This document shows, piece by piece, positions 11,899 to 30,197 of a DNA stretch of 64,000 bases. Each line of letters starts with the position of its first letter. Position 1 is the first letter of the stretch. Origin of the DNA: Candidatus Nitrosotalea sp. TS (GTDB lineage Archaea; Thermoproteota; Nitrososphaeria; Nitrososphaerales; Nitrosopumilaceae); contig NZ_RCMB01000007.1 in assembly GCF_011319465.1 (NCBI RefSeq), positions 124,001 through 188,000 of the forward strand, written 5' to 3'. A program made the position numbers and the translations under genes. The notes below the pieces were generated by a model. That model had not been told where the DNA came from and ran no database searches. It was given only the letters and a program-made list of their open reading frames with translations.

Positions 11899-12103
11899 GA
11901 ACGATACCAAAAAGGAGATTTAATCCTATGTATGACTGTGATTAATACATATACGATCGCAGTAGATTTTGAAATTTCATTATTAAAAATTGAAAAAAAG
12001 TACAAAAAATCTTGGCAAGATAATCAAGTCTGGAATCTAATTTAACTAATATTTGTAACATGCAGATTCAGGAATGCAGTTACAGATCATGAGGTTTTCA
12101 AAT

Positions 12104-12316: not shown

Positions 12317-12379
12317 TCCATTAGCAGGCGTCTTTTATTTGCTTTTTTTAAAAATCATGATCTAGGAGAAATACAAGAG

Positions 12380-12631
12380 TTAGATTTCTTGCTCTTCGTT
12401 GACCAGCATTGTAATGGTGGAGACGATCTTGTTCACTCTTCTTATTTTACCAAGCATGTTTCTTACGTCTTCCATATTTCCACACTCTATTTTGGCAATT
12501 ATATCATACACCCCATAAACTCCTTGAATCTCATACTTGACAGACTGGCCAGTCATGATTTCATTTATTTTCGATATTATCTCGACTTCGGAATTTGGCT
12601 GGCTATTTAGTAGAATGTATGCAGTTGGCAT
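12380..12631 (-). CDS. Stand-alone Lrp/AsnC RAM-domain protein
   Basis: A RAM domain of about 83 residues: MPTAYILLNSQPNSEVEII, then QGVYGVYDIIAKIECGNMED and a final ITMLVNEEQEI. No DNA-binding domain is present. ATG 12631 is preferred over the preceding GTG because it matches the MPTAY start of the paralogue at 10271. Two palindromes lie upstream at 12647-12667 and 12728-12743. Confidence 0.85.
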   Translation of the reverse strand: MPTAYILLNSQPNSEVEIISKINEIMTGQSVKYEIQGVYGVYDIIAKIECGNMEDVRNMLGKIRRVNKIVSTITMLVNEEQEI

Positions 12632-12646
12632 CACAGTATTTAGGAA

Positions 12647-12667
12647 TCCATACTATTTCAGTATGGA
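12647..12667. promoter_or_regulatory. Palindrome upstream of a RAM gene
   Basis: TCCATACT and AGTATGGA form a perfect 8-bp inverted repeat with a 5-bp spacer, 16 bp before the RAM gene start at 12631. It could be a regulator binding site or a hairpin in the leader. Confidence 0.4.
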
Positions 12668-12727
12668 CCCATTACAAACCCACATACAATTTTTCACATA
12701 ACCAAGATAACAGAGTAAAACATCTAG

Positions 12728-12743
12728 TCCCCTAACTAGGGGA
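12728..12743. repeat. Short perfect palindrome
   Basis: TCCCCTA and TAGGGGA, separated by two bases, form a 16-bp palindrome in the 270-bp gap between the RAM gene and the zinc-ribbon gene. The GC-rich block stands out locally. Function unknown; an operator or hairpin is possible. Confidence 0.3.
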
Positions 12744-12908
12744 TTCACTGGCTATGAACATACACGCCAATGTTTCTTTCTTTGGTTTGTTGTCTGTGAT
12801 ATAATACGTGATCACGAAATAAAAGACTATCCAACAGGCAAAGTAATCTATTTGTAATTTCAATTTCTACACAGTGAGCTTTATTACTTTGGCTGACGAA
12901 TAATACAC

Positions 12909-13040
12909 ATGAGAAAAGAATTCTGCCACGTTTGTAAAGAAGGCGGCAAACAATGCGTCGATGTCGATACCAAGGGTGAAGTGTACCTCAAAATGTTTGA
13001 GGTAAAATGCTCAAAATGCGGGGCTCCTTTGGCAGTCTGA
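12909..13040 (+). CDS. Small zinc-ribbon protein, 43 aa
   Basis: Encodes MRKEFCHVCKEGG...KCSKCGAPLAV with two CxxC knuckles about 25 residues apart, a zinc-ribbon pattern. ATG at 12909 and TGA at 13038-13040. It is 72 bp upstream of psmB on the same strand and could share a promoter region. The role is unknown; such small zinc ribbons often bind nucleic acid or other proteins. Confidence 0.6.
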   Translation: MRKEFCHVCKEGGKQCVDVDTKGEVYLKMFEVKCSKCGAPLAV

Positions 13041-13112
13041 TATCATCCATATTTTTGTGACTAGGTTCAGGAGATTACCAGTCAATTAATTCCCTACTGC
13101 CGTATAGATGTC

Positions 13113-13688
13113 ATGACAACAATCGTAGGAATCAAGACAAGAGATGGAGTAGTCTTGGGCTCAGACAAAAGAGCAAGCAAAGGATTCTTCATCGGATCAA
13201 AGATAGTCCAAAAGATTGCAAAAATAGATGAGACGTTAGCAGTGGCAATCGCAGGTCAGCTCTCTGACGCAGAATACATAATCAAGGTAGCAAAGGCCGA
13301 GAGAAGATTGATGGAACTTCGAAGAGGATTTCCTCTAACTGTAAAAGAGTCTACCAGATTGATTGCAAATCTAGCATATTCTGGCTTGAGAAATTATCAG
13401 CCATATTATGTAGAGTTGCTTGTGGCAGGAGTAGACCAACATGGCGCGCACGTATATGCAGCTGACATGAGTGGTGCCATAACAGCAGAAGACTTTGCCT
13501 CATCAGGCTCTGGTTCTCCCATTGCATACGGAGTGCTTGAAAGCTTGTACAACAAGGAGATCAAAAATGAGCAAGCAAAGGAGATTGCCACGCGAGCTGT
13601 TGCCGCTGCAATGGAGCGAGACCCAGGCTCTGGCAACGGAATAGATGTGTTGGCAATACCAATGATAACAAGGGAGGTTGCTGCATAA
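13113..13688 (+). CDS. psmB: Proteasome beta subunit
   Basis: The proteolytic subunit of the 20S proteasome. The protein begins M-TTIVGIKTRDGVVLGSDKRAS with no propeptide, so removal of Met would expose Thr1. With that numbering, Asp17 and Lys33 fall exactly where the catalytic triad requires, and SGSGSP and GNGIDVLAI are also present. It should be active. The 191 residues match a mature beta subunit. The TAA is directly followed by the ATG of psmA, so the two are co-transcribed. Confidence 0.95.
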   Translation: MTTIVGIKTRDGVVLGSDKRASKGFFIGSKIVQKIAKIDETLAVAIAGQLSDAEYIIKVAKAERRLMELRRGFPLTVKESTRLIANLAYSGLRNYQPYYVELLVAGVDQHGAHVYAADMSGAITAEDFASSGSGSPIAYGVLESLYNKEIKNEQAKEIATRAVAAAMERDPGSGNGIDVLAIPMITREVAA

Positions 13689-14363
13689 ATGTCAGAATCT
13701 AGTCCAAACTCTGGAAGGTTTCCATTCTATGGGCCTCAGGGCAGACTTGTTCTGGTGGACAGCGCGCTTGAAGCAGTAAGTCGCGGGTCAACAACTATTG
13801 GAATCAGGACTCCAAAGTTTGCCATACTTTCAAGCCAGATAAAACCAACGCACCCATTGATAGAGCCATCTGAGAAAATATTCTCAATTGATTATCACGT
13901 AGGTGCCACGGGTTCAGGATACATTGGAGACATCTTGCAGCTAATTGACACCCTAAGACTAGAAGCTCAGAAACACAAATTGACGTATGAGAGCCCGATA
14001 GATACAGATTCTCTGGCAAAACATCTCAGCACTTACCTACACAACTATACAACGTATGCTGTAAGACCACAGGCTGCTTCAATCATACTGGCTGGCGCAG
14101 ACGAGACTGGAGTACAGATGTACCAAGTTGACCCAAGTGGTACTTTCTTTAGAGGCTCTGGTTTTGCCATAGGTCAGGCAGCTGACATGGCGCTGGATGT
14201 AGTGACAAAGGAGTACAGTGCGGATTTGACCCAGCAGCAGGCCATAGATCTATCAAAGAAGGCAATAGAGAAAGCGCTCGGTGAGAAACCAATTGTTGAG
14301 ACAGGCATTGTTCTTGCAGGCGAAAATACGTTCCACAAGATTCCCTTTGAGAAGGGAAACTAA
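13689..14363 (+). CDS. psmA: Proteasome alpha subunit, divergent
   Basis: Alpha-type fold with GRLVLVDSALEAVSRGSTTIGI, IEPSEKIFSIDYHVGATGSG and a matching C-terminal helix region, 224 residues. Alpha subunits form the gated outer rings of the 20S particle. The N-terminus (MSESSPNSGRFPFYGPQGRL) lacks the conserved YDR gating motif that normally precedes the PDGRL segment. It therefore looks like a divergent paralogue rather than the main alpha; a canonical psmA is not in this window. It starts immediately after psmB. Confidence 0.85.
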   Translation: MSESSPNSGRFPFYGPQGRLVLVDSALEAVSRGSTTIGIRTPKFAILSSQIKPTHPLIEPSEKIFSIDYHVGATGSGYIGDILQLIDTLRLEAQKHKLTYESPIDTDSLAKHLSTYLHNYTTYAVRPQAASIILAGADETGVQMYQVDPSGTFFRGSGFAIGQAADMALDVVTKEYSADLTQQQAIDLSKKAIEKALGEKPIVETGIVLAGENTFHKIPFEKGN

Positions 14364-14381
14364 CTTTTTTATTTTTTTAGA
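14341..14381 (+). terminator. Terminator at the end of psmBA
   Basis: TTCCCTT/AAGGGAA, a perfect 7-bp inverted repeat with a 4-nt loop at 14341-14358, overlaps the last codons of psmA. It is followed by U-rich sequence at 14366-14380. In archaea the U-tract is the main termination signal; the hairpin may help or be coincidental. Confidence 0.5.
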
Positions 14382-14407
14382 TATACGGTATTCACAGAGT
14401 CGTATTT

Positions 14408-15043
14408 TCAGTTATATTGATTGAAAGAATCCAAACTATTCCTTCCGCTAGGTTTTGTCTTCTGGAATACTTTGGTTATTTGCTCAAATATGTGATATGC
14501 ACTTACCATGGCTTCTGCCTTGCTTTTGTCTCCTATGGCATTGCTCTCTACTACTGCGTATCTTGATACAATCTTGAGATTGACTTGGAACTTGTCACCG
14601 TTGGCCCATTGTAGCACATATCCTCCGTCTCCATCTATCAATCCCATCCATCTCAAATTACCAAACCATTTTCCGACAAGCTTGTTTACAATTTCTTCAA
14701 CCTCAACAGTGCTTGGAATGTACAGCTGAAGTACCTGGACAAATTGAATGTGTTGTTTTGATATTTTCCTAGACAAGTTCTCAAGATCCAACCTAGACCT
14801 CTTGACTAGAATTGATCTTAGGTTCTTACTTGGCCTATAACCAGCCTCGCTTTTCTCTACAAGACCGGAATTTTCCAATCTATGCAGAGATCTTGATAGA
14901 CTTTGCTGGTGCATTCCCAGTTTTCTTGCCAAGCCATTGAAAGTGTACTGATTATCAGCTAAATCATTATCTTGGTTTAATATCGACAAAACTTTCTTGT
15001 CATTTGCTTGAAAGTCATCAAGCGATATTCCAGTACGAGTCAT
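14408..15043 (-). CDS. Winged-helix transcriptional regulator
   Basis: A MarR-like winged helix at residues 15-75 (YTFNGLARKLGMHQQSLSRSLHRLENSGLVEKSEAGYRPS) is joined to a C-terminal domain of about 120 residues with LRWMGLIDGDGGYVLQWANGDKFQVNLKI, which looks like a beta-rich sensor. No membrane segment is present. ATG 15043 is preferred to the preceding TTG. A short acidic ORF overlaps the start in another frame. The target is unknown; convergent psmA lies downstream. Confidence 0.7.
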   Translation of the reverse strand: MTRTGISLDDFQANDKKVLSILNQDNDLADNQYTFNGLARKLGMHQQSLSRSLHRLENSGLVEKSEAGYRPSKNLRSILVKRSRLDLENLSRKISKQHIQFVQVLQLYIPSTVEVEEIVNKLVGKWFGNLRWMGLIDGDGGYVLQWANGDKFQVNLKIVSRYAVVESNAIGDKSKAEAMVSAYHIFEQITKVFQKTKPSGRNSLDSFNQYN

Positions 15044-15134
15044 CAATTATGAGTTGCACTATCTTGTCATCTAGTGTTATTTCTTTTTCCTCCTTTTTTT
15101 CCTCGATCTCAGTCTTGATTTCTTTGTTTTCCAT
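15018..15134 (-). CDS. Possible small acidic/basic ORF, 38 aa
   Basis: ATG 15134 opens a very charged peptide (MENKEIKTEIEEKKEEKEIT...) that ends at TGA 15018, overlapping the start of the regulator by 26 bp. It may be a translationally coupled leader peptide, or the true N-terminus of the regulator split off by an indel. The evidence is limited to the ATG and the biased composition. Confidence 0.25.
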   Translation of the reverse strand: MENKEIKTEIEEKKEEKEITLDDKIVQLIIDDSYWNIA

Positions 15135-15182
15135 TTTTTCTATCCCATAATGAGCTTGCTACTTATTTAAGGATAGGCGACA

Positions 15183-15440
15183 TTATCGCGCTATCTCTTC
15201 CTGTCTTGTCACCATATTGGTCAAAGATTTGTACAGTATGTTTAGTCTATTTTTTCTTGACCTTGCATTTCTTGAGCTTAGTCTTAATTTATTATTGCAA
15301 CACGGACAGCGATACAGAGGATATGAATTTACATCAATGAAGACACCGCACACAGAGCACGGTCTCTGTCCTGCCACGAATCTGAATCCGTCAGATGGTC
15401 TTTTTGCTGCAAACCTATTGCATATTCCTTTACATCTCAA
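15183..15440 (-). CDS. Zinc-ribbon protein, 85 aa
   Basis: Contains CxxxC near the N-terminus and then RPCSVCGVFID...YPLYRCPCCNNKLRLSSR, which gives two CxxC pairs suited to zinc binding. The rest is strongly basic (ARSRKNRLNILYKSL), compatible with nucleic-acid binding. It starts at TTG 15440. I recognise the general type as a conserved small Nitrososphaerota protein but no defined function. Confidence 0.65.
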   Translation of the reverse strand: MRCKGICNRFAAKRPSDGFRFVAGQRPCSVCGVFIDVNSYPLYRCPCCNNKLRLSSRNARSRKNRLNILYKSLTNMVTRQEEIAR

Positions 15441-15590
15441 AAATTATCAATTCTCCTTTTGACAGGTACAAAAATGCACATAACTTTGATTTGATACGAC
15501 ATTGATAAAGTGACTAATATCCAATAAACCTAGTCACAGGTACTGCATACACCAATGGATTGGCCAAATATGTTATCATCACTAATAGAT

Positions 15591-16388
15591 CTAATTCTTG
15601 TTTCTAGTTGCAAAAGCATATCCAAATGATGTTGATACTATTGCAACAGCCAAGACAGGGCCTGTAAATTCTGGCATGACAGAGGATTTTGTCAATATTT
15701 CATACGAAGCAACGAATGCAACTATCATTGCTGCACCACTCAAAGCGTATGACATGTATCTAAATCCACGAGTATTGAATATCCTTGAAAATGCAGAACG
15801 AAGTATTACACTGTCAAAAGTATCAATTGGAATCATGCCCAGAGCAAAGAATCCTGCCAATATCAATGCGGATTGGACACCTGTAGTAGCTGATGCCACC
15901 GCAGATAACGAAATGGCTGAAATTTGCGTTGCAGTATCAAATCCAAGGCCAAATACCAGACCAGTTACAAGTGCAGACCCGACAGGACCTAGCATTCCTG
16001 TTTTGCTGAGAATTTTGCTTGCAAGTATCGCAGAGCCGCTTTTCCCCCATTTCTTCATGGAGTAGATGTTAATTGTTCCTATTACACCCAAGGCGATAGC
16101 CCCTATCACTCCGCCCCAAAAGGCCAGATTACCAGTACTAGTCATGCTGCCAATGACATAGATTATGAAAACCATTTCTGCCAATACGGATATCATATGG
16201 CCTGCACTGAATCCTGCACCTACCCATCTCGATCTCTTGATTGCATTATGTAGTCGAACCAGGTTATCAATAGCCGTAATATGATCAACGTCAAGAGCAT
16301 GACGCATGCCAAGCAAAATCATTGTTGGAAGTGATACAGCGATAAACGGCCACATGTCTACCAAATTAGATTTTCCCCATCTCAGCAA
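15591..16388 (-). CDS. Nickel/cobalt permease, NiCoT/NicO-like
   Basis: A polytopic membrane protein of 265 residues. The metal-site motif RHALDVDHITAIDN in an early helix and the second signature GLGFDTATQ are hallmarks of high-affinity nickel transporters. Such permeases bring Ni(II) across the cytoplasmic membrane, for example for urease. No metallochaperone or urease gene lies in the window. The frame is intact. Downstream of a run of copper-related surface genes on the same strand, but with its own 140-bp upstream gap. Confidence 0.9.
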   Translation of the reverse strand: MLRWGKSNLVDMWPFIAVSLPTMILLGMRHALDVDHITAIDNLVRLHNAIKRSRWVGAGFSAGHMISVLAEMVFIIYVIGSMTSTGNLAFWGGVIGAIALGVIGTINIYSMKKWGKSGSAILASKILSKTGMLGPVGSALVTGLVFGLGFDTATQISAISLSAVASATTGVQSALILAGFFALGMIPIDTFDSVILRSAFSRIFNTRGFRYMSYALSGAAMIVAFVASYEILTKSSVMPEFTGPVLAVAIVSTSFGYAFATRNKN

Positions 16389-16532
16389 GTGATATGGATG
16401 TATGTTTTTAAATTTTGATGATTCCAGATTAATTGTGAAACAGACAGAAACTGTAGATCAATACATTTTTGACACAATTCCCAAATAGATTCCAACAATT
16501 TTAGATTAGATTTTAGTTTTCAACAGTGAGAA

Positions 16533-17372
16533 TCAATTACAAACAGGATTATTTTTACAATGAAGATTGGCACCGGTAAGAATGGCGCTGCCCAAATCTG
16601 CACTGCTCAAATCTACACCGTCGAAATTGGCATTAGTTAGATTCGCATAAGCAAAGCCAGTATCTTGGAGACTTGCTCCCCTAAAGTCAGCCCCTGAGAG
16701 GTCCGAGTTCATAAACAAGACACGGTCCAGGTTAGCATTTTTTAGTATTATTCCATGAAAGGTTGCCCATCTCATAGTACTGTCGTGAAGTATGGTTCCA
16801 GTCAGATTTGCATTATTCATTGTTACAAAGTTAAAGTCAGAAAACTGCGCATCAGTTGATACCATGCTAGCACCTGAAAGATTGGCACTTGAAAAATCAG
16901 TGTTTGCCATCTCTGCGTTATTGAGATTGGCACCGTTTAGGTTTGCCTCAACCAGATCTGCTTTGAAAAGATTAGCATGTGAAAGATTTGTTCCTTGAAG
17001 ATTTGAGCTATCAAGATGGGCGTGACTCAAATATTCGCCCGAATGATCACACCCATGCCAGTCCACAAGGGGGTAATTGTTGTCATTACAATTTTTAGAC
17101 TGTGAAATTACGCTAGGAGATGCAGTGGTAGTTTGGTTTACTGATACAGTTTCCTTGGATGAAAGACTTGTAATAAGATTATGGATTTCCTGCATGAATT
17201 GCTGGTCATTTATGTTACCTGAAAGCCAAATGCTTGCATTGTCTCTGAACCATTGAGGTATCTGCTGTCCAGTATCAGCACTTGCATAATTATGAGATGA
17301 TGTCAAGTTGAACAATAAGATAGTGACAAGAGCATAAACTACTGTAAGCATTGAGATTCTTTTTGGTGTCAT
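16533..17372 (-). CDS. Secreted pentapeptide-repeat protein with N-terminal Trp module
   Basis: Signal helix, then IPQWFRDNASIWLSGNINDQ, the Trp module found in several secreted proteins here, a Thr/Ser-rich linker, and about 28 pentapeptide repeats A(D/N)Lxx from residue 115 to the end (for example NLSHANLFKADLVEANLNG). Pentapeptide repeats form a right-handed quadrilateral beta-helix used in protein interaction. The terminal Cys pair (CKNNPVC) may form a disulfide. Frame intact. Extracellular role unknown. Confidence 0.82.
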   Translation of the reverse strand: MTPKRISMLTVVYALVTILLFNLTSSHNYASADTGQQIPQWFRDNASIWLSGNINDQQFMQEIHNLITSLSSKETVSVNQTTTASPSVISQSKNCNDNNYPLVDWHGCDHSGEYLSHAHLDSSNLQGTNLSHANLFKADLVEANLNGANLNNAEMANTDFSSANLSGASMVSTDAQFSDFNFVTMNNANLTGTILHDSTMRWATFHGIILKNANLDRVLFMNSDLSGADFRGASLQDTGFAYANLTNANFDGVDLSSADLGSAILTGANLHCKNNPVCN

Positions 17373-17545
17373 AAGCCTATATCTGAAAATATTTGGTCAA
17401 ATTAGATAATAAGGTACATGGTACATTTGATAGTTGTACCAAGATTGAAAATCCAAGACTGCGAATCAGGTACATGTTTTATCAAATGAATTTGGCGAAA
17501 ATATTGGTTGTGTGACATGTGTTTCTTTTTGTGCCCGGCCCAAAT

Positions 17546-18459
17546 TTACTTTCTTTGAAATATTCTTGACATGGCGATCACACCAATAAATGATATCATC
17601 ACAAGCAGTATTGGGATTGGAAACTCTGGTACGGCAGAAATATCAAATGCAGATATCAGGTTAGGATGAATTTGCAGATGTACTACCATCATAACATCCA
17701 TGCCAGTATCTCGCGCATCTATCTTCTGTTTGAGTTCATTGAGTGCAGTACCAACCTTGTCAAGATAAGGCGACGTATTTGATGGTGCAATAGATTGTAA
17801 ATTGCTAAACATGTTTTGAGCCGTACCCTGCTAGTGCTTGAGCACTTTGGTATGCAGCTACATTAACAATTGGAGTGCTTGTCGTTTTTGACATGCCGCC
17901 TCATGCCAGACATGCCATTTCCAGATGACGAACTATTCATATTCATGTTATCCATGTTGGTAAGATCAATTGTTGATCCTATTGCAGTACCATAATCCTT
18001 TAGGACTTCATTTATCACGTTAACTATTGCCAATGCCTGTACCGTAGAGTTATTTTGTGATGAGCTGCTAACTTCTTGGGATTCAGCTTGGTCCAAAAGT
18101 TGGCTTGTCTCATCTGCCTTTTGGTTTGCCATAGTAGGATCTGCGTTTTGTTGTCCTGCCATAGAATATAGGTTATCTATTGATGTCGATAACTGAGTAG
18201 CAAGAGTAGAGTTTGTTTGAGAGAGAACACCAATCTCGTTGTTTCCCCAGTACTCTTGACTTTTTGATAGGTGCCATTGAGATAACGTATTATTTGAAAT
18301 ATTATCTGCCATCAACTTTGATTCAACCTTGAACTCTTGAATTTGTGCAATCAAACTTGCGTCGGAATTTTGAACAAAGGTATGAGCAAATGCAGGATGA
18401 ACAACCATTGTACCGCTGAATATAATGACCATTAACGATACAACAAGGGTCCTTTTCAT
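17546..18459 (-). CDS. Met-rich secreted protein with PEF-type C-terminal anchor (two frame breaks)
   Basis: Signal peptide (MKRTLVVSLMVIIFSGTMVV) with mature start at about AHTFVQ, then a long helical region and a segment rich in Met, Asn and Ser (NMDNMNMNSSSSGNGMSGM). The tail is VPEFPIPILLVMISFIGVIAMSRIFQRK in outline: a PEF motif, a hydrophobic helix and basic residues, as used by archaeosortase-processed proteins. Extra bases near 17895 (A) and 17831 (G) break the frame. The Met/His content and position behind CopC-CopD suggest copper binding (inference). Confidence 0.65.
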
Positions 18460-18517
18460 ATCAACAGGTGCACCAGCATATCATTTTAAAATATTTTGGT
18501 ATATACGTCAAAGAGAA

Positions 18518-19247
18518 TCAGGTTTGATTTTTACGTGTTAGTGCTACAACTGCAATCACGATTCCTGCAACTCCAATTCCAATTCCCGTGATGCTTATCA
18601 TAAACAATGTGTCTGTAATGTTTTTTACCTCATCAAATGATTTTGCCACGTTTGCGTAACTCTGTGTAGCTATATTGGCGTCACTTGCTGCTTTGGTGAT
18701 CTCAGCAGATAATTGGTTTATGACTTGAGAGCTTACATTATTTTGTTCGGATCCTGAAGGTACTGTTACCGAAGACGAGGGTATTGATGATGGTGTAGAG
18801 CCAAGTGGTTGATAATATGCATCCTTATTCTCCACTTCATCAAGTGGAAATACTGCATTTACTGACTGTCCATCTATGGTGCCATTCACTATTACATTGT
18901 AAGAGCCAACCTTTGGTTGGGATCACCGTAGCGTCATACTCGTCTGGAGTGTCATCACTTGGGGTAAACTGTAATGTCTTTTGCAATCCGCCATATGTTA
19001 TCACTATAGTCATGTTGTCTAGCGCTGTTTCTTGTATTGGAGTTGTATTGTTGCCGCTTCCCTTGTCTACGAACACTTGTACAGTATTTGTGTCTCCAAT
19101 AAGAGGTGGCTCATTTGCAAGCCCTATCTTTACTGTCACGTCTCCAAAGTTTTTTGTTACATGTGCGCTGGCAGGGTGCACTGCAAAAGGGATTACAATA
19201 AGAGCTACAAGTATCGGGATCAACATGATGCTAAAATTTTTCTTCAT
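18518..19247 (-). CDS. Secreted YtkA/FixH-like protein with C-terminal membrane helix (one frame break)
   Basis: Signal peptide, then HVTKNFGDVTVKIGLANEPP and an Ig-like domain of the YtkA/FixH type, a Ser/Pro linker, an amphipathic helix region and a C-terminal helix (ISITGIGIGVAGIVIAVVAL) with a basic end. An extra C near 18913 (CCAACC instead of CCAAC) breaks the frame; the twin copy at 22348-22800 lacks it. ATG 19247 follows the TAA of the CopC-CopD gene with no gap, so both are on one transcript. Likely part of copper handling at the membrane (inference). Confidence 0.7.
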
Positions 19248-19289
19248 TTACAAATCGTCCTTCTTGTCATATAAAATATTTTGTGGTAC
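18822..19289 (-). repeat. Inverted repeat arm 1
   Basis: 468 bp that recur in opposite orientation at 22306-22772. I count two substitutions and one indel between the arms, about 99.4 percent identity. The arm spans the last 14 codons of the CopC-CopD gene and most of the following YtkA-like gene. Confidence 0.9.
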
Positions 19290-22231
19290 GACAGGCGAAT
19301 GCGAACCAGTATGGTAAGAGCCGTATCTTTTCACATCCCGTATGCTGTTTGTAAGATCTGTTGCTGTTTTGGTGTAGAAAAACGAGGATGCAACAACGAA
19401 TACTGCAATCAATGGAGCGGCAAATCCCGCATAGTTTAGAGGCGAGACAGGAATGATTGGAGCAACCAGATTACCTGCGCTGTTTGCAGATCCTGCACTG
19501 TTAACACTTGATGTGATCAAACCAAGCGCATGTGCTCTTTGTTCTGCAACCACTACTCCTTTATCCTGTAGCCACAAGCCACTGTGTGAATGAATTTTTT
19601 GACGGAATATCAATTTGAACATATTGACCTGTACTTGGGTCCACTACCGCAACTTTGTCATAGGTATGCTGTGCAATCCACAGGTGACCGTCAGCATCAA
19701 GTGTCATGCCATAAGGCAAATTGGAAGGATTTTGATCAAGTGGATATGATTTGAACATGCTAATCAAAGAGTCCAGAACAAGCAATCCATGACCTTCATG
19801 TTCTGTTACATACACTTGATCGTTTCTCGGATCTTCCAATATTGAAGTCAGATCGGATTGGGTTGCATTTATGTTCGGATCATGCTGTACGACATTACCA
19901 TTAGTAGGATCAACTTCTGCAATCTTACCACTGCCCCCTCTGCAATCCATATTTTGCCAGAGTCAGCGGCAGTTGTGATTCCAAGCGGCTCTGAGCCAGA
20001 AGGTAATGAAATTGTAGTAAACGATCCTGCTTGAGGATTAAATTTCAGTAATTGATCACCGTTTGCAACAATCAACCATATTTGTGATGTTTTATCTAAT
20101 GTCATACCCGATATGATTCCGCTGTTTGGAATCTTGTATTGCTTATCAGAGTTGTCGTCAGGATTATAATGACCTAGAATTTTTGTGATTGGATCAACAT
20201 ACCATATCATGCCGTCAGAATCAAGCACCATCCATGTTACAATATTGACGCCAGATAGCTTGTGTTCAGTGTATTTATGAGAAGTGAGATCAAATCCAAA
20301 TATTCTACCGCTGCCTATGGCAGAATCGCCAACCCAGACAATCTCTCTGTTTTTGTCATATACCGGATACAGTGGAAGTGAGGCATTTTGCGGCATATGG
20401 TATTCAGTGAGATTAAATGAAAGTTGGTTTAGTGCAGGTTTCAAGTAAAAATCGTAAGTAGTTGCAAGCTCTATGGAATTTGCTTGGGATTGAAATCCGT
20501 TTACCCCTATCTCCCAATTGCCTCCAATACTAAATGGAACATTTGCAGTAAAAGATCCGTTACTGATCTTCTGCATCTCTACATTTTGCAATGAAATTCC
20601 TTTATCAGTTTGCGTAGGTACCAATTCTACTGATTTCATATCCAGTTGCTTCATAGATGGATCAAGAAATGTTACTGTAAAATTATCAATTCCAAGGCCA
20701 AATGGGCTCAATGTCATCATTACCTTATTTCCATCAACGGTTTTTGTATCTGTGAATACATTGTTGTCCACATTGCCAAGTGGAGCCATGGCAAACACAT
20801 TTGGTATCGCATCTTGCTGAATTGGAAACTCATTCCCAGGGGTTCCAGAATTAGTAAGAACTGCAACCGAGGCAAGTAGTGCCATTCCAATAATAGCCTC
20901 AATCTTTGTGATGTTAAATGATAGCGATTCAACTGGACTGATCGTTGATGTTCCATTGGTTTTCACTAGTGTTCTTAAAAGATTTGATGCTTTTTTGTGA
21001 ATAACTAGTTGAGTGTAAGCTCCTATCGATAGCATGGCTGCAGCAAGCAATAGTTTTATGATCAGGATCTTACCATATGTAGACACAAGCGTAAGCGACA
21101 GATTGTTTTCAAGTATATACAGCAGGAATGGTCCGGTTATTGCTACGACTCCAAGCGAAGCCACGACAAGTATTGAAAACCTTGGAATTATGATAGAAAT
21201 TAATGAGAGATATGCTTCTTTGTTACTCAGTTGTTTTAGTACGGGAGATACTGCAAATGCGAGATAAAAGATACCCCCAATCCATAATGAGGCCACTACA
21301 TTATGTATAAAGTCAATCAATGTGGCATATACATATCCTGTAGCTGTACCATGACCAACCAAACTTGTAGTCAACAATGTACCAACGCCCATTCCAAAAA
21401 GTACCCATGTGGAATATTTTGTAACTTGCTTGCCTTTTCTCGTATCAAGATACACTGCAGCCGAGACTGCAAGAAGTCCTGCTGAAATAATTATACGAAC
21501 AATCATCATATTGCCAAACTTGGTAGATAATGCATCTCCAAGACCACCGCCGATAGCAAATGCTTCAGCTACTACCATTCCAAAATCTGACGCTACAAGC
21601 AATATCGAACCTATCAATGCCAATTTTATCATTCTCTTGTCAATCAGCGTCCTGCTCGTTGCAGTAGATGCATTTAGCCACGAGATCCTCGACACTGGTT
21701 TCCAGAGCCATAGTGTTGCCGATGCAGCACCTACAACCATCACCTGTGCCACAAGTGTAGGAAATCTAGCAATAGCCTCTGGTATTGAGATCTCAGTGAG
21801 ATATCAGATGACGATTGTGCAAGATTTTGTGATACTTTGGCATTTACTCCAAATACAATTCCAGGCGTAGTAACATGGCCGTCTGTTGCATCAAGTACCT
21901 TAGTGGATACGGTATAGATTCCATTTGGGAGTCCAGGTTGAAGTGTGATTTCAAGTCCAGTATGATCCGAGTTGGTATAATGCAAGTCATTATTTTGAAC
22001 TTGATTGCCATTTGGACCGGTAACTACGATCTTACTATACTTGATATCCACCGGATCGCTGAAAACAATGTCTATTGCAGATGGAACAGAAGATACGGAT
22101 TCATACGCATTTGGGGTGCTGCTTGAGATGAAGGCATGCTCGTATGACACAGGAATGGTCGAAATAGCCAGTATGCATGAAACGGATATTGATGCAAGTA
22201 AAATTATTTTCAAATTCTGAGGGTATTTCAT
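19248..22231 (-). CDS. CopC-CopD-beta-propeller fusion, copper-associated membrane protein (three frame breaks)
   Basis: Read through breaks near 21760, 19943 and 19580 it gives about 990 residues. These are a signal peptide and CopC domain (H-AFISSSTPNAYESVSS, DATDGHVTTPG), about eight CopD membrane helices (VVGAASATLWLWKPVSR, LIDFIHNVVASLWIGGIFYL), an extracellular beta region, a Vgb-like propeller (IWYVDPITKILGHY, HLWIAQHTYDKVAVVDP) and a final membrane helix. CopC binds copper outside and CopD is thought to import it. Ammonia oxidisers need much copper, so uptake is plausible. One break is in a G run (five, six expected). Confidence 0.75.
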
Positions 22232-22305
22232 CTAGTATTACATCATAATGGAGATTACATGTTATTTTAATCTACTAGTACAAGAACAAAATTTATTCGT
22301 CGTCT

Positions 22306-22772
22306 GTACCACAAAATATTTTATATGACAAGAAGGACGATTTGTAAATGAAGAAAAATTTTAGCATCATGTTGATCCCGATACTTGTAGCTCTTATTGT
22401 AATCCCTTTTGCAGTGCACCCTGCCAGCGCACATGTAACAAAAAACTTTGGAGACGTGACAGTAAAGATAGGGCTTGCAAATGAGCCACCTCTTATTGGA
22501 GACACAAATACTGTACAAGTGTTCGTAGACAAGGGAAGCGGCAACAATACCACTCCAATACAAGAAACAGCGCTAGACAACATGACTATAGTGATAACAT
22601 ATGGCGGATTGCAAAAGACATTACAGTTTACCCCAAGTGATGACACTCCAGACGAGTATGACGCTACGGTGATCCCAACAAAGGTTGGCTCTTACAATGT
22701 AATAGTGAATGGCACCATAGATGGGCAGTCAGTAAATGCAGTATTTCCACTTGATGAAGTGGAGAATAAGGA
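22306..22772 (+). repeat. Inverted repeat arm 2
   Basis: 467 bp matching arm 1 (18822-19289) in reverse orientation. It starts with the final 42 bp of the CopC-CopD reading frame, here without the rest of that gene, which shows this arm to be the derived copy. The arms enclose 3.0 kb. Confidence 0.9.
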
Positions 22773-22800
22773 CAAGTACTATTTCCCACCCTTATCATAA
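22348..22800 (+). CDS. Secreted YtkA/FixH-like protein, truncated duplicate
   Basis: Nearly identical to the first 138 residues of the gene at 18518-19247: signal peptide, HVTKNFGDVTVKIGLANEPP and the Ig-like domain. After ENKDKYY the sequence diverges and stops at FPPLS, so the linker, amphipathic helix and membrane anchor are missing and the product would be released. The frame is open, unlike the other copy. It is transcribed divergently from the CopC-CopD gene. Confidence 0.8.
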   Translation: MKKNFSIMLIPILVALIVIPFAVHPASAHVTKNFGDVTVKIGLANEPPLIGDTNTVQVFVDKGSGNNTTPIQETALDNMTIVITYGGLQKTLQFTPSDDTPDEYDATVIPTKVGSYNVIVNGTIDGQSVNAVFPLDEVENKDKYYFPPLS

Positions 22801-22975
22801 ACAGACAGAATGTCACTGAGATAAAAACTGATTCCAAATGTACATCAAGTTATTTTTAAAAATCAAAACAGTAAGATCAGGCATTTTTTATCCTGGTGCA
22901 AAAAGTCACCATTAGAGACTGCTAGTTCGTATGTTGTACCACTTGATTTAAATTTCATTTTGACTTATTTTGATT

Positions 22976-23369
22976 GTGTTCAGACCCCAAACTCTGATCG
23001 AGACCAAGTCTACACTGCTTAGTGTCATAATATTTGCACTTGTTGCCGCGTTATCAATTCCTGTCATATTACCACACATATTCCAGCAATTCGAGCTTTT
23101 CCACATACTTTTACACATTAGCGGAATAGGCTTTGCTTCATTTCTTACAATAGTTGCCGCAGTGGCATATCACAAGGTCAAGACCCGTAGGCTTCTTTTC
23201 ACCACTATCGCATTTGGCACTTTTATCTTGGCAGAAGTATTTTCCCTAATTGATGCAGCATGGGAATCAAAATATTATTTTTGGACTTTTTCATCAGCCG
23301 AGATAGGCCATCTAGTCATGTTCTTTCACTCTACTAATGTTTGCACTAAGTGTGTTTAGGAGAGATTGA
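22976..23369 (+). CDS. Membrane protein with four helices (one frame break)
   Basis: About 130 residues with four hydrophobic segments and HILLHISGIGFASFLTIVAA as the second. His residues at the membrane faces (FHILLH, GHLVMFF) could bind heme or metal, but no family is recognised. An extra C near 23320 breaks the last helix; restored, it ends LLMFALSVFRRD at TGA 23367. The stop overlaps the region before the regulator at 23372, suggesting one operon. Start GTG 22976. Confidence 0.5.
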
Positions 23370-23371
23370 AG

Positions 23372-23869
23372 ATGGATAGAGTTACGCAGATAATTTCAGT
23401 TATTGAGAAAAATCCAGGAATAAAATTCCGCGAGATAATGCGAGAGACGGGAATGAAAAATGGTGTTCTGGGATATTATGCAGACAAGCTAGAAAGAGAC
23501 GGGGCTGTAAAGATTGACAGAAGCCCTGGCCAGACAAGGTTCTATCCACCTGGAATAGCAGACGATGACATATCATTGATAAAGAATCTGAGGCAGGAGA
23601 CACCAAGACAGATTCTTGCATCTTTGCTACATCACAAAACTCTATCATTTAGCGAATTAGTTTTGAAAACACAAAAATCGCCAGCTACAGTTTCCTTATA
23701 CCTTGCACAAATAGCAAGAGACAATCTCATTGAAAGTAAACTTGTTGATTTCAAAAAAAGATATCATGTTAAAGACGTGGAAAAATTGCAAAAAATTATT
23801 GATAAATATCATCCAGGCCTGATTGAAAGATCGGCAGATCATCTAGCTGATACTTTTTCGTCACTTTAA
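23372..23869 (+). CDS. Transcriptional regulator with two winged helices
   Basis: Two consecutive winged-helix units: residues 5-60 (ISVIEKNPGIKFREIMRETGMKNGVLGYYADKLERDG) and 75-135 (ILASLLHHKTLSFSELVLKTQKSPATVSLYLAQIARDN). This tandem layout is common among archaeal membrane-gene regulators. It has no sensor domain, so it may respond through a partner such as the four-helix protein encoded just upstream. ATG 23372 is chosen; a TTG two codons upstream is possible. Confidence 0.78.
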   Translation: MDRVTQIISVIEKNPGIKFREIMRETGMKNGVLGYYADKLERDGAVKIDRSPGQTRFYPPGIADDDISLIKNLRQETPRQILASLLHHKTLSFSELVLKTQKSPATVSLYLAQIARDNLIESKLVDFKKRYHVKDVEKLQKIIDKYHPGLIERSADHLADTFSSL

Positions 23870-23920
23870 AAATATCAAAAATATTATTTTCAGTGTCAAA
23901 GATAAAGACAGATTCCAAGA

Positions 23921-25380
23921 ATGAAGATCAGAGTTTATTTAGAGTCCAGAGGAAGCCACGATAAGAGTAGATACGTAATGAAACCTGTATATTTTCTAGT
24001 TATTCTAGTCATCGCTGTTTCTCTTTTTCTTGTTTCAAAAGCACAGGGAGACGGGTTGGCCAGCGAGATTCTCCCCCCTTCCCTGATAGGAAACACAAAT
24101 GTTACCTTGTCCATTGGCTCCATCCCATTTTTAATTGACAATAATCACGCAGGTACTCAGCTAAATCTTGTATTGATGGATGCGTCAACCCAGCAGCCAA
24201 TACCTGATGCCACGCTTGCAATTTCTGCATTCAAGGGACAAGATGCAGTTTTTGGTCCACATATTCAAAAGTGACAGCGGGAATTTTGTTTTGAGTTTCT
24301 ACCCACAACAATCAGGCAATACAACATTTAACGAACAGGGCGGACTCCTTTCAGGAGTATTTGGTCAAGACAGCGGAAACTATGACGTCAAAGGTCCAGT
24401 CTTTGACACAGGCGGATTGTACAGGTTCAAAATTGAGGTAATCACTATGGGTGCATATGACAATCAAGTGAGCAAGTCGTATACTGCCGGTATATCAATA
24501 CCAGAGTATGACAATCTTACAATCAATGACCCCGGTTATGGAACACAGCAGATGCAGATCATAGCATATTATGATCGTCTGCACAATATCACATATGATC
24601 CAGTCACAAAATTTGTTAATTTCACCATGCCATTTGACTGGTCTACTCAAAACATAAGCCAGCTTACGGTAGTACACCAAGAAATAAGGATTCCAAGAAC
24701 TTTGGGAGATTTTGTGGTAACAAAATATGACGCCTATGTGAACAACATCAAGATACCTGACAAGTTGATATCAATAGATGATTATTCCATGGACGCATAC
24801 AGGATAGTGCACCTAATTTTATACAAGCCAGATGTTGAGAATCTTTTTTCAGAACAAAAAGATCCTGGCCAAGAGATGAATTTTGCAATCAAACCAAGTG
24901 ATGAAAATATTTTTCCAGTTGTCCAGTTCACAAGGAATGCACAGTACAAGATAGCACTAAGTTGGAATCCAGAAAAAATTCTAGAGGGTAACACTACACA
25001 GTTCAACTTTAAGGTTCTAGATCCATATGCTGCAAATAAAACAGTGAGCCCAATTTCCTATGATTTCTCAGTACTTGAGGGAAAAAACGGAGTGATATAT
25101 CACCAGATAGGAAAAACAACTGATTCAAGCGACGGGGATAACATCAATGTCGCGTTTCCATCAAACTACTACAGGGTCAATCACAATAGCATTTGAGAAC
25201 CTAAATGGAAGCAGTTTCTCGGCTACAGAATTCCCATCTACAGTGAACAGCCCCGATACAGCAACTAACCAGTCCACAGTGCCCGAGTTTCCATTAACTG
25301 CATTTGCGGTACTTGCAACTATGTTTGGATTTGGGGTCTTGCTTTCAAAAACAAGATTGTTCAAATCAAGGCAGATTTGA
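23921..25380 (+). CDS. Large secreted protein with PEF-type C-terminal sorting tail (two frame breaks)
   Basis: N-terminal signal helix (YFLVILVIAVSLFLVSKAQG), several beta-rich domains with many Asn/Thr (possible N-glycosylation sites), and the tail VPEFPLTAFAVLATMFGFGV plus a basic end. This is the pattern cut by archaeosortase-like enzymes to anchor surface proteins. Frame breaks near 24256 (before FKSDSGNF) and 25175 (before TGSITIAF) split an apparently single protein of about 485 residues. The middle beta regions are not assigned to a family. Confidence 0.62.
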
Positions 25381-25381
25381 T

Positions 25382-26328
25382 TTACCCTTTCATGCCATAT
25401 CCGACTAGTACAGAGTAGCATCCAAGACCACAGTCTTCGCAAATGGGTTTCATCGATTTGTCTTCTGCACTGCCTATACAGCAAGGCTCTTTTCCCTTCC
25501 CATATGGTCTACCGATAGTATGGCCCACGTAGGACAGTCTACAGGAGTAGTACCTTTTCCACCCCAGTTCTTTTTCATCAGTTCAAGCTGGCTGTCTGGA
25601 TTGATGATATAATCAGGATATTTTTCTCTCATTGCAATGATATCATCTACAACACGCGTTCTTTCCTCTCCAAATGGAAGCCACAGTGGATCGTTTTTCA
25701 TAAATGGCGTATGAAACTGGAATCCAATTTTATTTGAATAGTTGTGCCACTCTTCCATGACGTCCTTTACCGTCTTGTAGTTAAGAGAGTTTATGGTCAT
25801 TGTGATCCACATGTCCTTGTAGGCTAGCTTGCCATTTTTTTCCACATAATCAATAACATTGTGTCGTGTTTTATCCCAGGCACCGTTGCCGCGAATCTTG
25901 TCATGAATTTCTTTTGTTCCATCTATTGATATCCAATAGAAATACAGGTTGTCATATTTTTTCAACGGAATCGTTCCATTAGATACAATGCAGATTCGCT
26001 TTGGAAATTCTTTTATGAACAATTCAATTACATCTGGTCTCATAGTAGGCTCCCCTCCAACAAGCGTAATTATGAAAACATGGTTTTTCTTGAATTTTTC
26101 ATCAATTACCTTTTTCCATTGCTCTACGGTTAGCTCTTCATTTTCTTTTCTATTGAGCCACCAATAGCAATGAGTACAGTGTAGATTACACACGTTGATT
26201 ATATCTGCAGAGCCATATACTGGACTGCGTTTGTGAAATAACTTGTATCCTGCAAATTTAGTAAATATATGCACATAGCTTGGAGTCTCTTGAATTATCT
26301 GTCTTACTCCTCTACCCATTATTTCCAT
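25382..26328 (-). CDS. Radical SAM protein, HpnH/SPASM-like (one frame break)
   Basis: The 4Fe-4S motif CNLHCTHC (CxxxCxxC) near residue 47 is followed by LVGGEPTMRPD, the SAM-binding GGEP motif, and a half-barrel. A Cys-rich end (DCPTW, PCCIGS, ICEDCGLGC) suggests auxiliary cluster binding as in SPASM/twitch domains. A missing base near 25500 in a G/A run hides the last 40 residues, which resume as KEPCCIGSAEDKSMKP. The family acts on peptides, lipids or cofactors; substrate unknown. Confidence 0.8.
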
Positions 26329-26425
26329 TATACCCTAGATATGTCTCAGCACCTTATAAGATCTTTTTAATTGCAAAGTTTTAGAAATCTTGCGATAACA
26401 GTCTTTGTAAAATCTGTGCACGTGT

Positions 26426-26662
26426 TCAGTTAGAACATATCAGTGTAGTAGTGCATCGGATTTTATCAAGACTGCGAATTCTTGTAGTTATGGTGTGCTT
26501 GATCTCGTCTACTTTGGCAGACTGAATCTTGACTAGCACGTCATAGTTACCAAATACGCCTGTGACTTCCTTGACGCACTCTATTGGCTTTAATTTGTCT
26601 ATGACTGAACTCTCTGACCCCATCTCACAGTTAATCATCACATATGGCAGTTTCCAACCCAT
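26426..26662 (-). CDS. Stand-alone Lrp/AsnC RAM-domain protein
   Basis: A 78-residue RAM domain: PYVMINCEMGSESSVIDKL, TGVFGNYDVLVKIQSAKVDE and DKIRCTTTLICSN. No HTH is present. Start ATG 26662. It is a paralogue of the genes at 10.0, 12.4 and 60.8 kb, with the same GxxGxYD core. Confidence 0.86.
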   Translation of the reverse strand: MGWKLPYVMINCEMGSESSVIDKLKPIECVKEVTGVFGNYDVLVKIQSAKVDEIKHTITTRIRSLDKIRCTTTLICSN

Positions 26663-26728
26663 GATATTACGTGATTATAGTATATGAGATTTACATATTG
26701 CAAAGATCAAAAATAAAAAAGATGGGAG

Positions 26729-27526
26729 TTACTGTGCCCCAATTAAGAAAATGACATCAACCGTTGTTGTTATGTCTTGATTTGATGTAAGTATCGGTGT
26801 TTGTGCCATCATAGGTACAGCAGCACTCATCGCTGCCATGCGATATTCTGGAACTGGTGAAGGCATGTCAAACCCAGATAGGTTCACCATTTTCACACCA
26901 ATGATTTTCTGGCCAAGTGGGGCAAGCGCCTTTTCAGCCTTTGATTGTGCGTCCAAGACCGCCTGGGCGATTAGACCATTTTGAACACTCTGCTGTTTTG
27001 CAGGCGAAAGTGAGAACGATACACTGTCCACCCTATTTGCCCCTGCTCCAACTGCTACATCAAGTATCTTTCCTGCAAGACTCATTTTGGTTGTTTTAAT
27101 GAGTAATGTATTAGAAACCTTGTATCCGACAAGCTCGTTTTTGTATTCGTTGTATGGAGGATACGGGCCAGTCTGATTATAGACGGGGTCTATGGTAAAG
27201 CCGTTGGTGCCGGTTTCATTGCTTGCAATGCCAAGATTTTGTATTGCAGTAATTGTGGCATTCATTGCTTGAGCATTTTCACTCATTGCTTCTTGTGCTG
27301 TTTTTGCTTGTGTGTCAACTCCCAGCTGTATCATAACAAGATCTGGAGAGACCGACGCGGTAGCAGTTCCAGTCACAGAAGTAGTGTTTTGTTGTGGCGG
27401 GAAATAATACGGTGCTTGTTGCGCATATGCTTTATTGCTAGAGGTTTGCATGTCAGCGAAGACAGTTGTTGAGACAATTGCAATTGCGGCAAGTGCAGCC
27501 AGAATTATTGTGGTTTTATTTGTCAT
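26729..27526 (-). CDS. Secreted SIMPL-domain (DUF541) protein
   Basis: Signal peptide (residues 1-35, ending SNKAYAQQ) then a SIMPL domain: VTGTATASVSPDLVMIQLGV, YKVSNTLLIKTTKMSLAGKI, DSVSFSLS and the C-terminal TTTVDVIFLIGAQ. Length 265 is typical. The family is secreted or periplasmic in many prokaryotes and its biochemical function is unclear; some members relate to oxidative stress. Frame intact; monocistronic by spacing. Confidence 0.88.
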   Translation of the reverse strand: MTNKTTIILAALAAIAIVSTTVFADMQTSSNKAYAQQAPYYFPPQQNTTSVTGTATASVSPDLVMIQLGVDTQAKTAQEAMSENAQAMNATITAIQNLGIASNETGTNGFTIDPVYNQTGPYPPYNEYKNELVGYKVSNTLLIKTTKMSLAGKILDVAVGAGANRVDSVSFSLSPAKQQSVQNGLIAQAVLDAQSKAEKALAPLGQKIIGVKMVNLSGFDMPSPVPEYRMAAMSAAVPMMAQTPILTSNQDITTTVDVIFLIGAQ

Positions 27527-27655
27527 TAGTATCGTATTAGATGCTAGATCTTATAGGTTTTGATTAAATTTCACTTTAACTTAATTTTATATGAAAAAAT
27601 CATGTTAATCTGTATGATACACAAAAATTTTTATTTTTAGCGATACATCGAAAAA

Positions 27656-28390
27656 TTAATGTGTTGTTTTGATTTTTTTATTTTTCAATCTACTAGCTAG
27701 TTTTATTCCAAAAAACACGGCACAGAACATGACAGCTCCCCCAACCAATGCAAGCAATATCATCACCTGATCTCCTGAAAGAATAGACTGTTCAACAGGT
27801 GCCGGAGACGGTTGAATTGAGACAGATGAGTTCACTGCCCCGTTAATTGCAGCATGCATTGGAGTGGCCGACTGTAGCATGGTCTTTGCTGCCATTTGAG
27901 GAACATATGCAGACTCTGCCGGAGTTTGGTTTTTTTCAAATATGTATAGTCCTGATGCACCTATGACAAAAGCTGCCACGCTTGCCATATAGTGTCTGAG
28001 TTTCATCAGTACGGTATCTTTTTTTGAAACCTGTATGGCATCATCAGAAGGACTGTCAGGAGGAATTATCACAAGTGCAGTTTTTACTGGTCCATAGTAT
28101 TTCATTTGCTTATTTTTTTGGCTCATCTCAACCTTGTCTACTTTGATAAGACCTACACTCAAAAGCCGGTTTATGTGCCAGTTGACAAGAGGTAGTGAAA
28201 TCTCTAGTGTCTTTGCAAGTTCATTTGAGCTTGTAACGCCTTGCGATATTTTGCCAAAGATTGCACGACCTGTATCATTTGCCAGTTCTTCTCCTATTAT
28301 TTTTATTCGCTCATCGTCGGTACTAATCACTTCAATGTATTCTTCAGGTTTGACCGAGAGATCTGATTCTTTATCAGTACTGTCTGGCAT
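27656..28390 (-). CDS. Membrane-bound ArsR-like HTH regulator
   Basis: N-terminal winged helix (AIFGKISQGVTSSNELAKTLEISLPLVNWHINRLLSVGLIKVDKVE) followed by one helix (AAFVIGASGLYIF), an external Ala/Ser/Pro segment, and a second helix (MILLALVGGAVMFCAVFFGI) with a basic end. This topology places the DNA-binding domain inside and a loop of about 60 residues outside, so it may sense an external signal. ATG 28390 is preferred to an upstream TTG. Confidence 0.8.
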   Translation of the reverse strand: MPDSTDKESDLSVKPEEYIEVISTDDERIKIIGEELANDTGRAIFGKISQGVTSSNELAKTLEISLPLVNWHINRLLSVGLIKVDKVEMSQKNKQMKYYGPVKTALVIIPPDSPSDDAIQVSKKDTVLMKLRHYMASVAAFVIGASGLYIFEKNQTPAESAYVPQMAAKTMLQSATPMHAAINGAVNSSVSIQPSPAPVEQSILSGDQVMILLALVGGAVMFCAVFFGIKLASRLKNKKIKTTH

Positions 28391-28640
28391 CGTTTTTTCT
28401 TCCACAGTCCCTTTAAAATGCCTTGACAATATACTTCACGGACTCATTGTACGCAATTGTTATAATTTTCAAATGACTTGACCAATCCGTAGGAAAAGTC
28501 GATCTTTCAACTAGCTTGCAAAATTACTACTCTGGCACTTATGCCAGATCTTGCCAGTGTTTAAGACAGAATTCCAATTCGGAATCAGAAAAAGCAGTAT
28601 TGTTCCACAGTTTTTTTGTATTGTACCAACAAGCACAGGT

Positions 28641-28925
28641 ATGGGAAATAATTACGGAATGGAAAAAGTGCTAGTAGGTTTAGCCATAGAACATACCCTT
28701 TTGCAGATCGGCAAACCTGTCTTCGATAAGGTTGAAAATCAATTTCAAAGGAAATACCAACACTCCCTAATAGACGGCTATGACTATCCACAGTACCTAA
28801 ATGAGATCTTAAGAGAAGTTTTCGGCAAATCCCATTCAGACATAATAAAATCCATCGAAGAGTTCCTCGAAGAATTCAAGCATGATCAACCAATAGAGAC
28901 ATTCATCGAAAAAATAAAGCAATAA
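28641..28925 (+). CDS. NitrOD5-like (DUF3227-like) helical domain protein
   Basis: About 94 residues, MEKVLVGLAIEHTLLQIGKP, then YPQYLNEILREVFGKSHSDI and a final helix. The pattern aiehtLxxiGxxvxdxVexxF...yPxyLnxiLrxvFG resembles the output domain that I recall as NitrOD5 in Nitrososphaerota signalling proteins; the family name is from memory. ATG 28641 is chosen because the sequence upstream in frame is not conserved in character. It stands alone here, without a receiver domain. Confidence 0.5.
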   Translation: MGNNYGMEKVLVGLAIEHTLLQIGKPVFDKVENQFQRKYQHSLIDGYDYPQYLNEILREVFGKSHSDIIKSIEEFLEEFKHDQPIETFIEKIKQ

Positions 28926-28979
28926 GCAGGTACAAAAATCTAAAACATGCCCAGTTTTCAGGCAAGTTTGAAGGCAGTT

Positions 28980-29135: not shown

Positions 29136-29141
29136 TGCCAC

Positions 29142-30088: not shown

Positions 30089-30197
30089 GATACAGTTTTT
30101 GTTGCTTGCATACTGATTAATATTGCGAAACAGAGTTCATTTGGACTCATTTGTAATATAGCCAGACATGTCATTTTGGCGCCTGGCCAACTACAGG

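Follow-up and report, generated by a model that had tools for sequence, protein, structure and literature searches.

Does a gene of copper handling turn over in the chromosome of an archaeon, and if so, what would be exchanged between its two orientations? This question is raised by a stretch of 64,000 nucleotides (nt) from Candidatus Nitrosotalea sp. TS (contig NZ_RCMB01000007.1, positions 124,001 to 188,000; hereafter the window, its contig being denoted C1), in which a gene with CopC and CopD domains, here called M, is enclosed by two near-identical, oppositely oriented copies of a smaller gene, A. One copy of A continues into a predicted membrane anchor and the other, predicted to be released, ends in a short stop. 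We favour the reading, at a probability of roughly 0.6, that the arms of this inverted repeat are released and anchored paralogues of A, that homologous recombination between them inverted M, and that strains carry M in either orientation. The repeat and the pair of released and anchored copies can be regarded as solid, and a regulated switch as an attractive possibility.

An inverted repeat formed by two copies of gene A

When the window is compared with itself by blastn, the two arms (18822-19300 against 22772-22295) are the sole self-repeat at an E-value of 1e-10, aligned over 480 columns at 98.75% identity with 3 mismatches and 3 gap openings, and a separate repeat search recovers the same arms as two ungapped pieces. 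The longest exact inverted match in the window spans 245 nt, compared with 15-22 nt in 20 mononucleotide shuffles, so that the repeat is far beyond chance. A first-pass annotation, made from the letters of the window, had described a core of 468 and 467 nt in opposite orientation, with two substitutions and one indel; this holds in the alignment, and the arms extend about 11 nt further inward with weaker identity. Each arm begins 53 nt ahead of the start codon of A, the outer 11-12 nt matching weakly. In arm 1, this stretch closes M (...NILYDKKDDL, followed by TAAATG, the stop codon of M abutting the start of A), and the last 12 codons of M lie inside the repeat. In arm 2, the same nucleotides form an orphan leader, so that arm 2 looks like a copy, or a converted partner, of the M-A junction.

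The long copy of A consists of a signal peptide, an immunoglobulin (Ig)-like domain, a coiled-coil-like stretch and a C-terminal hydrophobic helix (signal, coil and helix judged by eye). The first-pass annotation had arm 1 running into a membrane anchor and arm 2 into a short stop, and both endings are borne out, the anchor by eye; the single frame assumed for the arm-1 gene is not, being interrupted in the window by an extra base near 18912. This base is probably a sequencing error because both copies of A on a second contig, C2, are open and encode 242 amino acids (aa). The label given to the arm gene, YtkA/FixH, fails: neither family is among the Pfam and NCBIfam matches of 24 A proteins at E-values up to 0.05.

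Is the short form of A an accident of this locus? Among 37 genomes of the genus (the present one, G000, included), A has a match in 34, M in 33 and R2, a gene of the right border, in 33 (some of the R2 matches are paralogues only, and the M match of G020 is a propeller paralogue only); the loci compared are those of 33 relatives with A and of G041, from another genus. A short A is present in four relatives, with the stop within 4 residues of the same place (KDQYNFP-stop, 150 aa, in G017; KDKYNFP-stop in G014, G002 and G031), and by this comparison the short form is a recurring kind rather than an accident. In G014 and G002, the second copy of A ends in a PEFG-type tail, that is, it would be anchored, and in G031 and G017 the second copy is interrupted by a contig end; the NCBIfam family TIGR04296 (PEFG-CTERM) matches 2 of 24 A members, the search output not naming which. 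The tandem A genes of G031 (locus L055, 1-903) differ in their signal peptides, but the DNA of their main domains is identical for some 368 nt, as far as the contig reaches; this points to gene conversion or to a recent duplication. The anchor region of A also occurs as a small stand-alone open reading frame (ORF) in G014 and G017 (L056 9017-9331; L087 9640-9951), with an apparent signal peptide of its own.

The structure model of A (mean pLDDT 84.7) has a predicted Ig-like fold. A Foldseek search with this model lists two copper proteins, the copper resistance determinant CrdA of Helicobacter pylori (9ll2, 9ll4; ranks 2 and 4) and CopC of Methylosinus trichosporium (5icu; rank 37). These matches, in which the likeness is that of the predicted Ig-like fold, are weak (TM-scores by query 0.41-0.47, identities 16-18%), rank 1 is a chain of the yeast oligosaccharyltransferase, and filamin and other Ig domains score alike, so that kinship with CrdA and CopC is suggestive only. 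A sequence search of solved structures gave no useful match (best E-value 0.02). Residues A28 and H29 are invariant in all 24 aligned A proteins. Mature CopC starts with a histidine, and signal cleavage after A28 would perhaps give a mature A that does likewise and binds copper through this residue. A search for viral carriage of A returned 8 pattern matches, none of them a relative of A.

The enclosed gene was described by the first-pass annotation as CopC-CopD, and both domains are confirmed, CopC at 52.3 bits (gathering threshold 23.3) and CopD at 36.4 bits (32.1); in the propeller region that follows, SGL at 26.7 bits barely passes its cut-off of 26 and Vgb_lyase falls under its own. A correction concerns its reading frame: M is broken into four overlapping ORFs in the window. 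It is one ORF in the three relatives with ORFs listed (G035, 978 aa; G029, 976 aa; G034, 989 aa), and the splits in the window look like sequencing errors.

A second haplotype, with M probably in the opposite orientation

The genome assembly (1,540,195 bases in 24 contigs, 71% complete) contains a second copy of the locus on C2 (27,622 bases). Positions 1-16796 of C2 align with window 2509-19300 at 97.3% identity, and 16319-27622 with the window from 22772 down to 11472 at 97.5%, so that, along C2, the left flank is followed by an arm, by M entered at its CopC end, by the other arm and by the left flank again in reverse. Thus, the left flank meets the CopC end of M in C2 and the other end of M in the window. 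The two halves of C2 are themselves related: 19798-27622 matches 8968-16796 in inverted orientation (97.7% identity, 149 mismatches).

Could this junction belong to a real chromosome? The pattern of divergence suggests that it could. Counted per 400 base pairs (bp), the forward flank of C2 differs from the window by 2, 2 and 1 mismatches at 16.3-17.5 kilobases (kb), and then, beyond 17.5 kb and through the arm, by 12, 20, 22, 9 and 12 (the 20 and 22 at 17.9-18.7 kb); M of C2 differs by 11-25 from the CopC end to about 19.9 kb, beyond which C2 resembles the window across the second arm and the beginning of the reversed flank. By these counts, the divergence forms one tract of about 4 kb that spans the join between left flank and CopC. 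A single diverged tract across the join is what a real strain with flipped M would give, and in the simplest reading the tract comes from such a strain, the change to window-like sequence on either side being due to the assembler or to inter-strain recombination; on this view, the forward half of C2 would be a faithful piece of a real strain. The notion that the whole C2 flank is 4-5% diverged was dropped, as only the part adjoining the arm is.

The junctions themselves agree with this reading. The junction of CopC and arm lies at the same base in two haplotypes, with the right flank beyond it in the window and the left flank beyond it in C2. At all three sites that separate the window arms, the CopC-side arm of C2 carries the letters of the CopC-side arm of the window, and the M-end arm those of the M-end arm; the letters that distinguish the arms go, as far as these 3/3 sites tell, with the end of M and not with the flank.

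The left flanks fall into three haplotypes that are mosaics: over 7.3 kb, 94 sites are peculiar to the forward half of C2, 81 to the window and 45 to the reverse half of C2, unevenly distributed. Third codon positions account for most of the differences (third:first:second 12:3:0, 22:4:0 and 59:16:9; the weakest case, 20:9:3, is part of P, the left neighbour), which argues that they are real strain variation. The indels are of another kind: not one of the 76 pairwise indels (39 + 15 + 22) has a length divisible by three, which points to read errors in a noisy assembly of long reads; runs of at least 3 equal bases contain 13, 1 and 12 of them, respectively. We conclude that real strains are present in an error-rich assembly, probably one of long reads. 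A 20-kb control stretch of C1 has no second haplotype contig.

The main rival, which we consider unlikely, is that C2 is misassembled: the arrangement of the window would be right and fixed in all strains, and C2 would join the left flank of one strain through the arm to the wrong end of M and return to the left flank of another strain. C2 is indeed palindromic and mixes haplotypes, its forward flank resembles the window once more at a distance of 1.3 kb from the arm, and no second copy of the right flank turns up when window 14000-32000 is searched against the genome as DNA. Nevertheless, misassembly has to contend with the divergence from the window of both the flank beside the arm (about 5%) and the M beyond it (3-6%), and with an arm of 480 bp that is short compared with the read length, if this is a long-read assembly, as the indels suggest though do not prove. 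The plainest version, in which C2 is a snap-back copy, is rejected, given that its halves differ at 149 sites.

It is also conceivable, though highly improbable, that arm 2 arose by mixing of strains in the assembly and is present in no chromosome. The error-rich assembly and the single A of the relatives with the same class of M would fit this suggestion; arm 2 has, against it, a C-terminus of its own and a right flank of its own that leads into R1, and the shared CopC-arm junction of the second haplotype speaks against it as well.

Inversion and cassette replacement among relatives

Comparison with related genomes was proposed by the first-pass annotation as a check on inversion, and its outcome is divided: M is found in both orientations within the clade of the window, and most of the differences come with a change of cassette. 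Outside the A-M block, the genes of the left flank (L6, L7) and right flank (R1-R4) keep their order wherever seen in the 33 relatives (L6 is seen in 28, L7 in 20 and R4 in 25). Written from left to right with strands, the layout A- P- M+ is found in 18 of the 33 relatives and in the outgroup G041, and G033 shows A- P- only. The remaining layouts are P- A- M- (G029); A- M- without P (G034); P- A+ M+ (G030, G023, G018); P- M- A- (G005); M- A- P+ on two contigs (G010); P- A- A- M+ on two contigs (G017); A- M+ with the left side cut (G019); A- A- M+ P- (G014, G002); P- beside R1, with A and M on other contigs (G031, G016); and P- A- at a contig end with M not found (G020). In G020, contigs begin inside A (L076 1-480) and inside R2 (L077 3-188), and M is missing though the assembly is listed as 97% complete.

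In a tree of flank proteins, built by a quick method with 8 of 32 inner branches weak, the clade of the window has 12 members (support 100), with M on the plus strand in 6, on the minus strand in 5 and of unknown orientation in 1. This tree requires at least 5 changes in the orientation of M, with G020, G031, G016 and G033 left out of the count. Within the clade, flanks are 75-92% identical to those of the window; M reaches 64-72% identity to that of the window in just two relatives, G034 and G029, the range for the rest of those compared being 39-57% (for clade members, 39-51%). The extreme case is G017, with 92% in the flanks and 43-48% in M. The tree of M groups by cassette class, unlike the flank tree, and G017 and G019 fall with G031, G014 and G002 of another clade. 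Since M has diverged between conserved flanks and its tree departs from theirs, the sequences indicate that the A-M block is exchanged and that most orientation differences accompany a change of cassette; the presence of one cassette class (G017, G019, G031, G014, G002) across two clades suggests transfer. Such replacement of the A-M cassette, between L6 and R1, is repeated in the genus (L047-L089). The idea that all changes in M orientation between species are inversions is weakened, because M belongs to diverged classes that largely follow the layout.

One has to ask whether cassette replacement could have produced the arrangement in the window as well, by putting A on both sides of M, with gene conversion keeping the copies alike and M not inverting between the arms. 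The locus is a hot spot of replacement, and the contrast between flanks and M (G034 and G029 excepted) together with the discordant tree of M fit such a static duplicate; we hold it to be quite improbable, as it leaves unexplained the junction of left flank, arm and CopC in C2. Inversions within one cassette class are represented by G010 compared with G018, G023 and G030, and by C2 compared with the window, G029 and G034.

Contig ends of relatives fall inside A eight times (6/33 genomes), compared with twice inside M (2/31), which is four times longer, and once inside R2 (1/31); eight other genes together have 16 ends over 8.4 kb. An end was counted within a tolerance of 12 nt, which excludes that of G016, 20 nt away from A. 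The binomial probability is 1e-4 against M and R2 and 5e-4 against all eight, in a calculation that treats contig ends as independent, which they are not fully, and for which further contigs were searched with A, M and R2 alone. The two contig ends of G010 share an exact overlap of 96 nt, which is what an unresolved branch would produce.

Several observations weigh against inversion of M between the arms in this species. The opposite orientation is seen in one 27.6-kb contig of the assembly, and that contig is in part at least chimeric, being a 7.8-kb inverted duplication of two different haplotypes. The haplotypes are mosaic, and in the forward flank of C2 the divergence from the window is confined to roughly 1.3 kb next to the arm. 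The predicted fourth junction, from the end of M through an arm to the right flank, was not found in the DNA search made with window 14000-32000. The longest identical tract of the arms, 245 nt, is below the 500 bp quoted for homologous recombination in Thermococcus kodakarensis in the available text of PMC5495485. G034 and G029, whose M belongs to the class of the window, each carry only one A and show a single orientation of M. As for the contig breaks, low coverage or tandem copies could also cause them, two of the six genomes concerned contribute a pair of ends, and a match to A, M or R2 was what brought a contig into the comparison.

A possible copper switch

Inversion between the arms nevertheless suggests a simple chain of events. 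Released and anchored copies of A, opposed around M, would be kept near-identical by gene conversion; homologous recombination between them would invert M relative to the flanks, and continued conversion would keep further exchange possible. In the window, M runs directly into the anchored A, and the released A and CopC are transcribed away from each other; with M turned, the two forms of A would swap roles. The first-pass annotation had proposed that recombination between the arms would set either the anchored or the released form behind M, and the direct adjoining of M stop and A start in TAAATG lends this support. Inversion would leave M with its own candidate promoter and change which A follows: two candidate TATA elements were picked out by eye, TTAAAATA for M, on the minus strand ahead of CopC in the unique segment, and TTTATATG at 22320 in arm 2, within the leader common to both arms. 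With such elements inside the repeat and inside the segment, the sequence suggests that flipping need not switch genes on or off.

What agent would carry out the exchange? The genome has two matches to PF00589 (on C6 and C15) and one to PF00239 (on C24), and none on C1, these being the two integrase/resolvase families searched in a genome that is 71% complete. A site-specific inverton, with short repeats and a linked recombinase, does not agree with arms of about 480 bp and with the absence from C1 of PF00589 and PF00239 matches. For the same two reasons, ordinary homologous recombination, presumably of the RadA type, is the likely agent; a distant integrase is also possible.

A copper-uptake role of the locus, in which A would work with M in copper handling, is suggested by the CopC and CopD domains together with the copper-limitation response of Nitrososphaera viennensis, in which CopC/D genes are, in the available text, among the most upregulated (PMC7785015). 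Within the inversion reading, a strict phase-variable switch, whereby one clone flips reversibly and the form of A that follows M matters for copper acquisition, appears doubtful. The geometry, with the stop of M abutting the start of A, the recurrence of released and anchored copies in relatives, the archaeal AmoA encoded in the genome (E-value 2.9e-107) and the response of N. viennensis all accord with it. The evidence for the two orientations is, on the other hand, at the level of strains, the candidate promoters travel with the repeat and with M, there is no integrase or resolvase match on C1, and the copper motif of N. viennensis is at chance level (2 window matches at up to 3 mismatches, neither near the locus, compared with 3.07 expected by chance in the window). 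Even more doubtful is the full picture of an archaeal phase-variable copper switch, in which opposed copies of a secreted carrier flip the CopC-CopD gene between a tethered and a released carrier and yield mixed populations of private and shared scavengers.

One of the closest known systems is that of the hsdS genes of Streptococcus pneumoniae, where, according to the available text, inverted repeats lie inside coding genes as they do here, with the arms in A, and inversion changes the C-terminal part joined to the expressed gene (PMC4948785). There, switching is shown in culture, one of the inversions (IR1, 15 bp) is the work of PsrA, a linked tyrosine recombinase, and recA deletion is without detectable effect (PMC4948785); here, the arms are about 480 bp, there is no integrase or resolvase match on the contig, and two orientations in one species are suggested by the window and C2 in the assembly. 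The available account of Thermococcus offers a likeness in that DNA inversion is frequent in an archaeon; those inversions are large, chromosomal and due to a plasmid integrase of low sequence specificity that acts on segments down to 104 bp (PMC5495485), compared with a local exchange between two copies of one gene in the present case. M is a CopC-CopD fusion of the same kind as the thaumarchaeal CopC/D fusion genes, to which it adds the propeller region, and the available text on those genes describes no inverted or rearranging locus (PMC7785015). No such locus in ammonia-oxidizing archaea was found in the open-licence literature, among the titles and abstract openings listed. Ammonia oxidation depends strongly on copper, a metal that can be in short supply (PMC7785015, available text), and how ammonia-oxidizing archaea gather it is not settled. 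If the present reading is true, a flipping transporter gene with a released or anchored partner, together with replaced cassettes, would give a handle on copper competition between strains.

Table 1. Positions of the repeat, its genes and the bordering genes in the window
Feature	Position	Strand	Remarks
Gene P, left neighbour	17546..18459	-	single ORF of 299 aa (G035) or 309 aa (G029); split here
Gene A, long (anchored) copy	18518..19247	-	ORFs 18840-19247 and 18518-18889; frame broken by one extra base near 18912
Arm 1	18822..19300	-	last 53 nt of M, then signal peptide and main domain of A, long copy
Gene M	19248..22231	-	CopC, CopD, propeller, hydrophobic end; four ORFs: 21740-22231, 19869-21752, 19561-19950, 19248-19622
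Unique stretch	22232..22294		between CopC start and arm 2; holds TTAAAATA
Arm 2	22295..22772	+	second copy of the inverted repeat
Gene A, short (released) copy	22348..22800	+	150 aa, terminus KDKYYFPPLS-stop
R1, right border	22970..23359	+	conserved small protein; last residues frame-shifted here
R2, right border	23366..23869	+	winged-helix (helix-turn-helix) protein; HTH_24, 41.5 bits (cut-off 21.9)

Single-base indels split several genes around the repeat, namely M, A, P, R1 and R3 in window 17546-25374 and the C2 copies of M, L5 and L7; these splits are probably assembly errors and are likely to mislead ORF callers. No tRNA genes and no known RNA families were found in the window. Near the copper block, at 15591-16388, lies a gene that we take, from its motif, to be Ni/Co-transporter-like, and its orientation and position differ among relatives.

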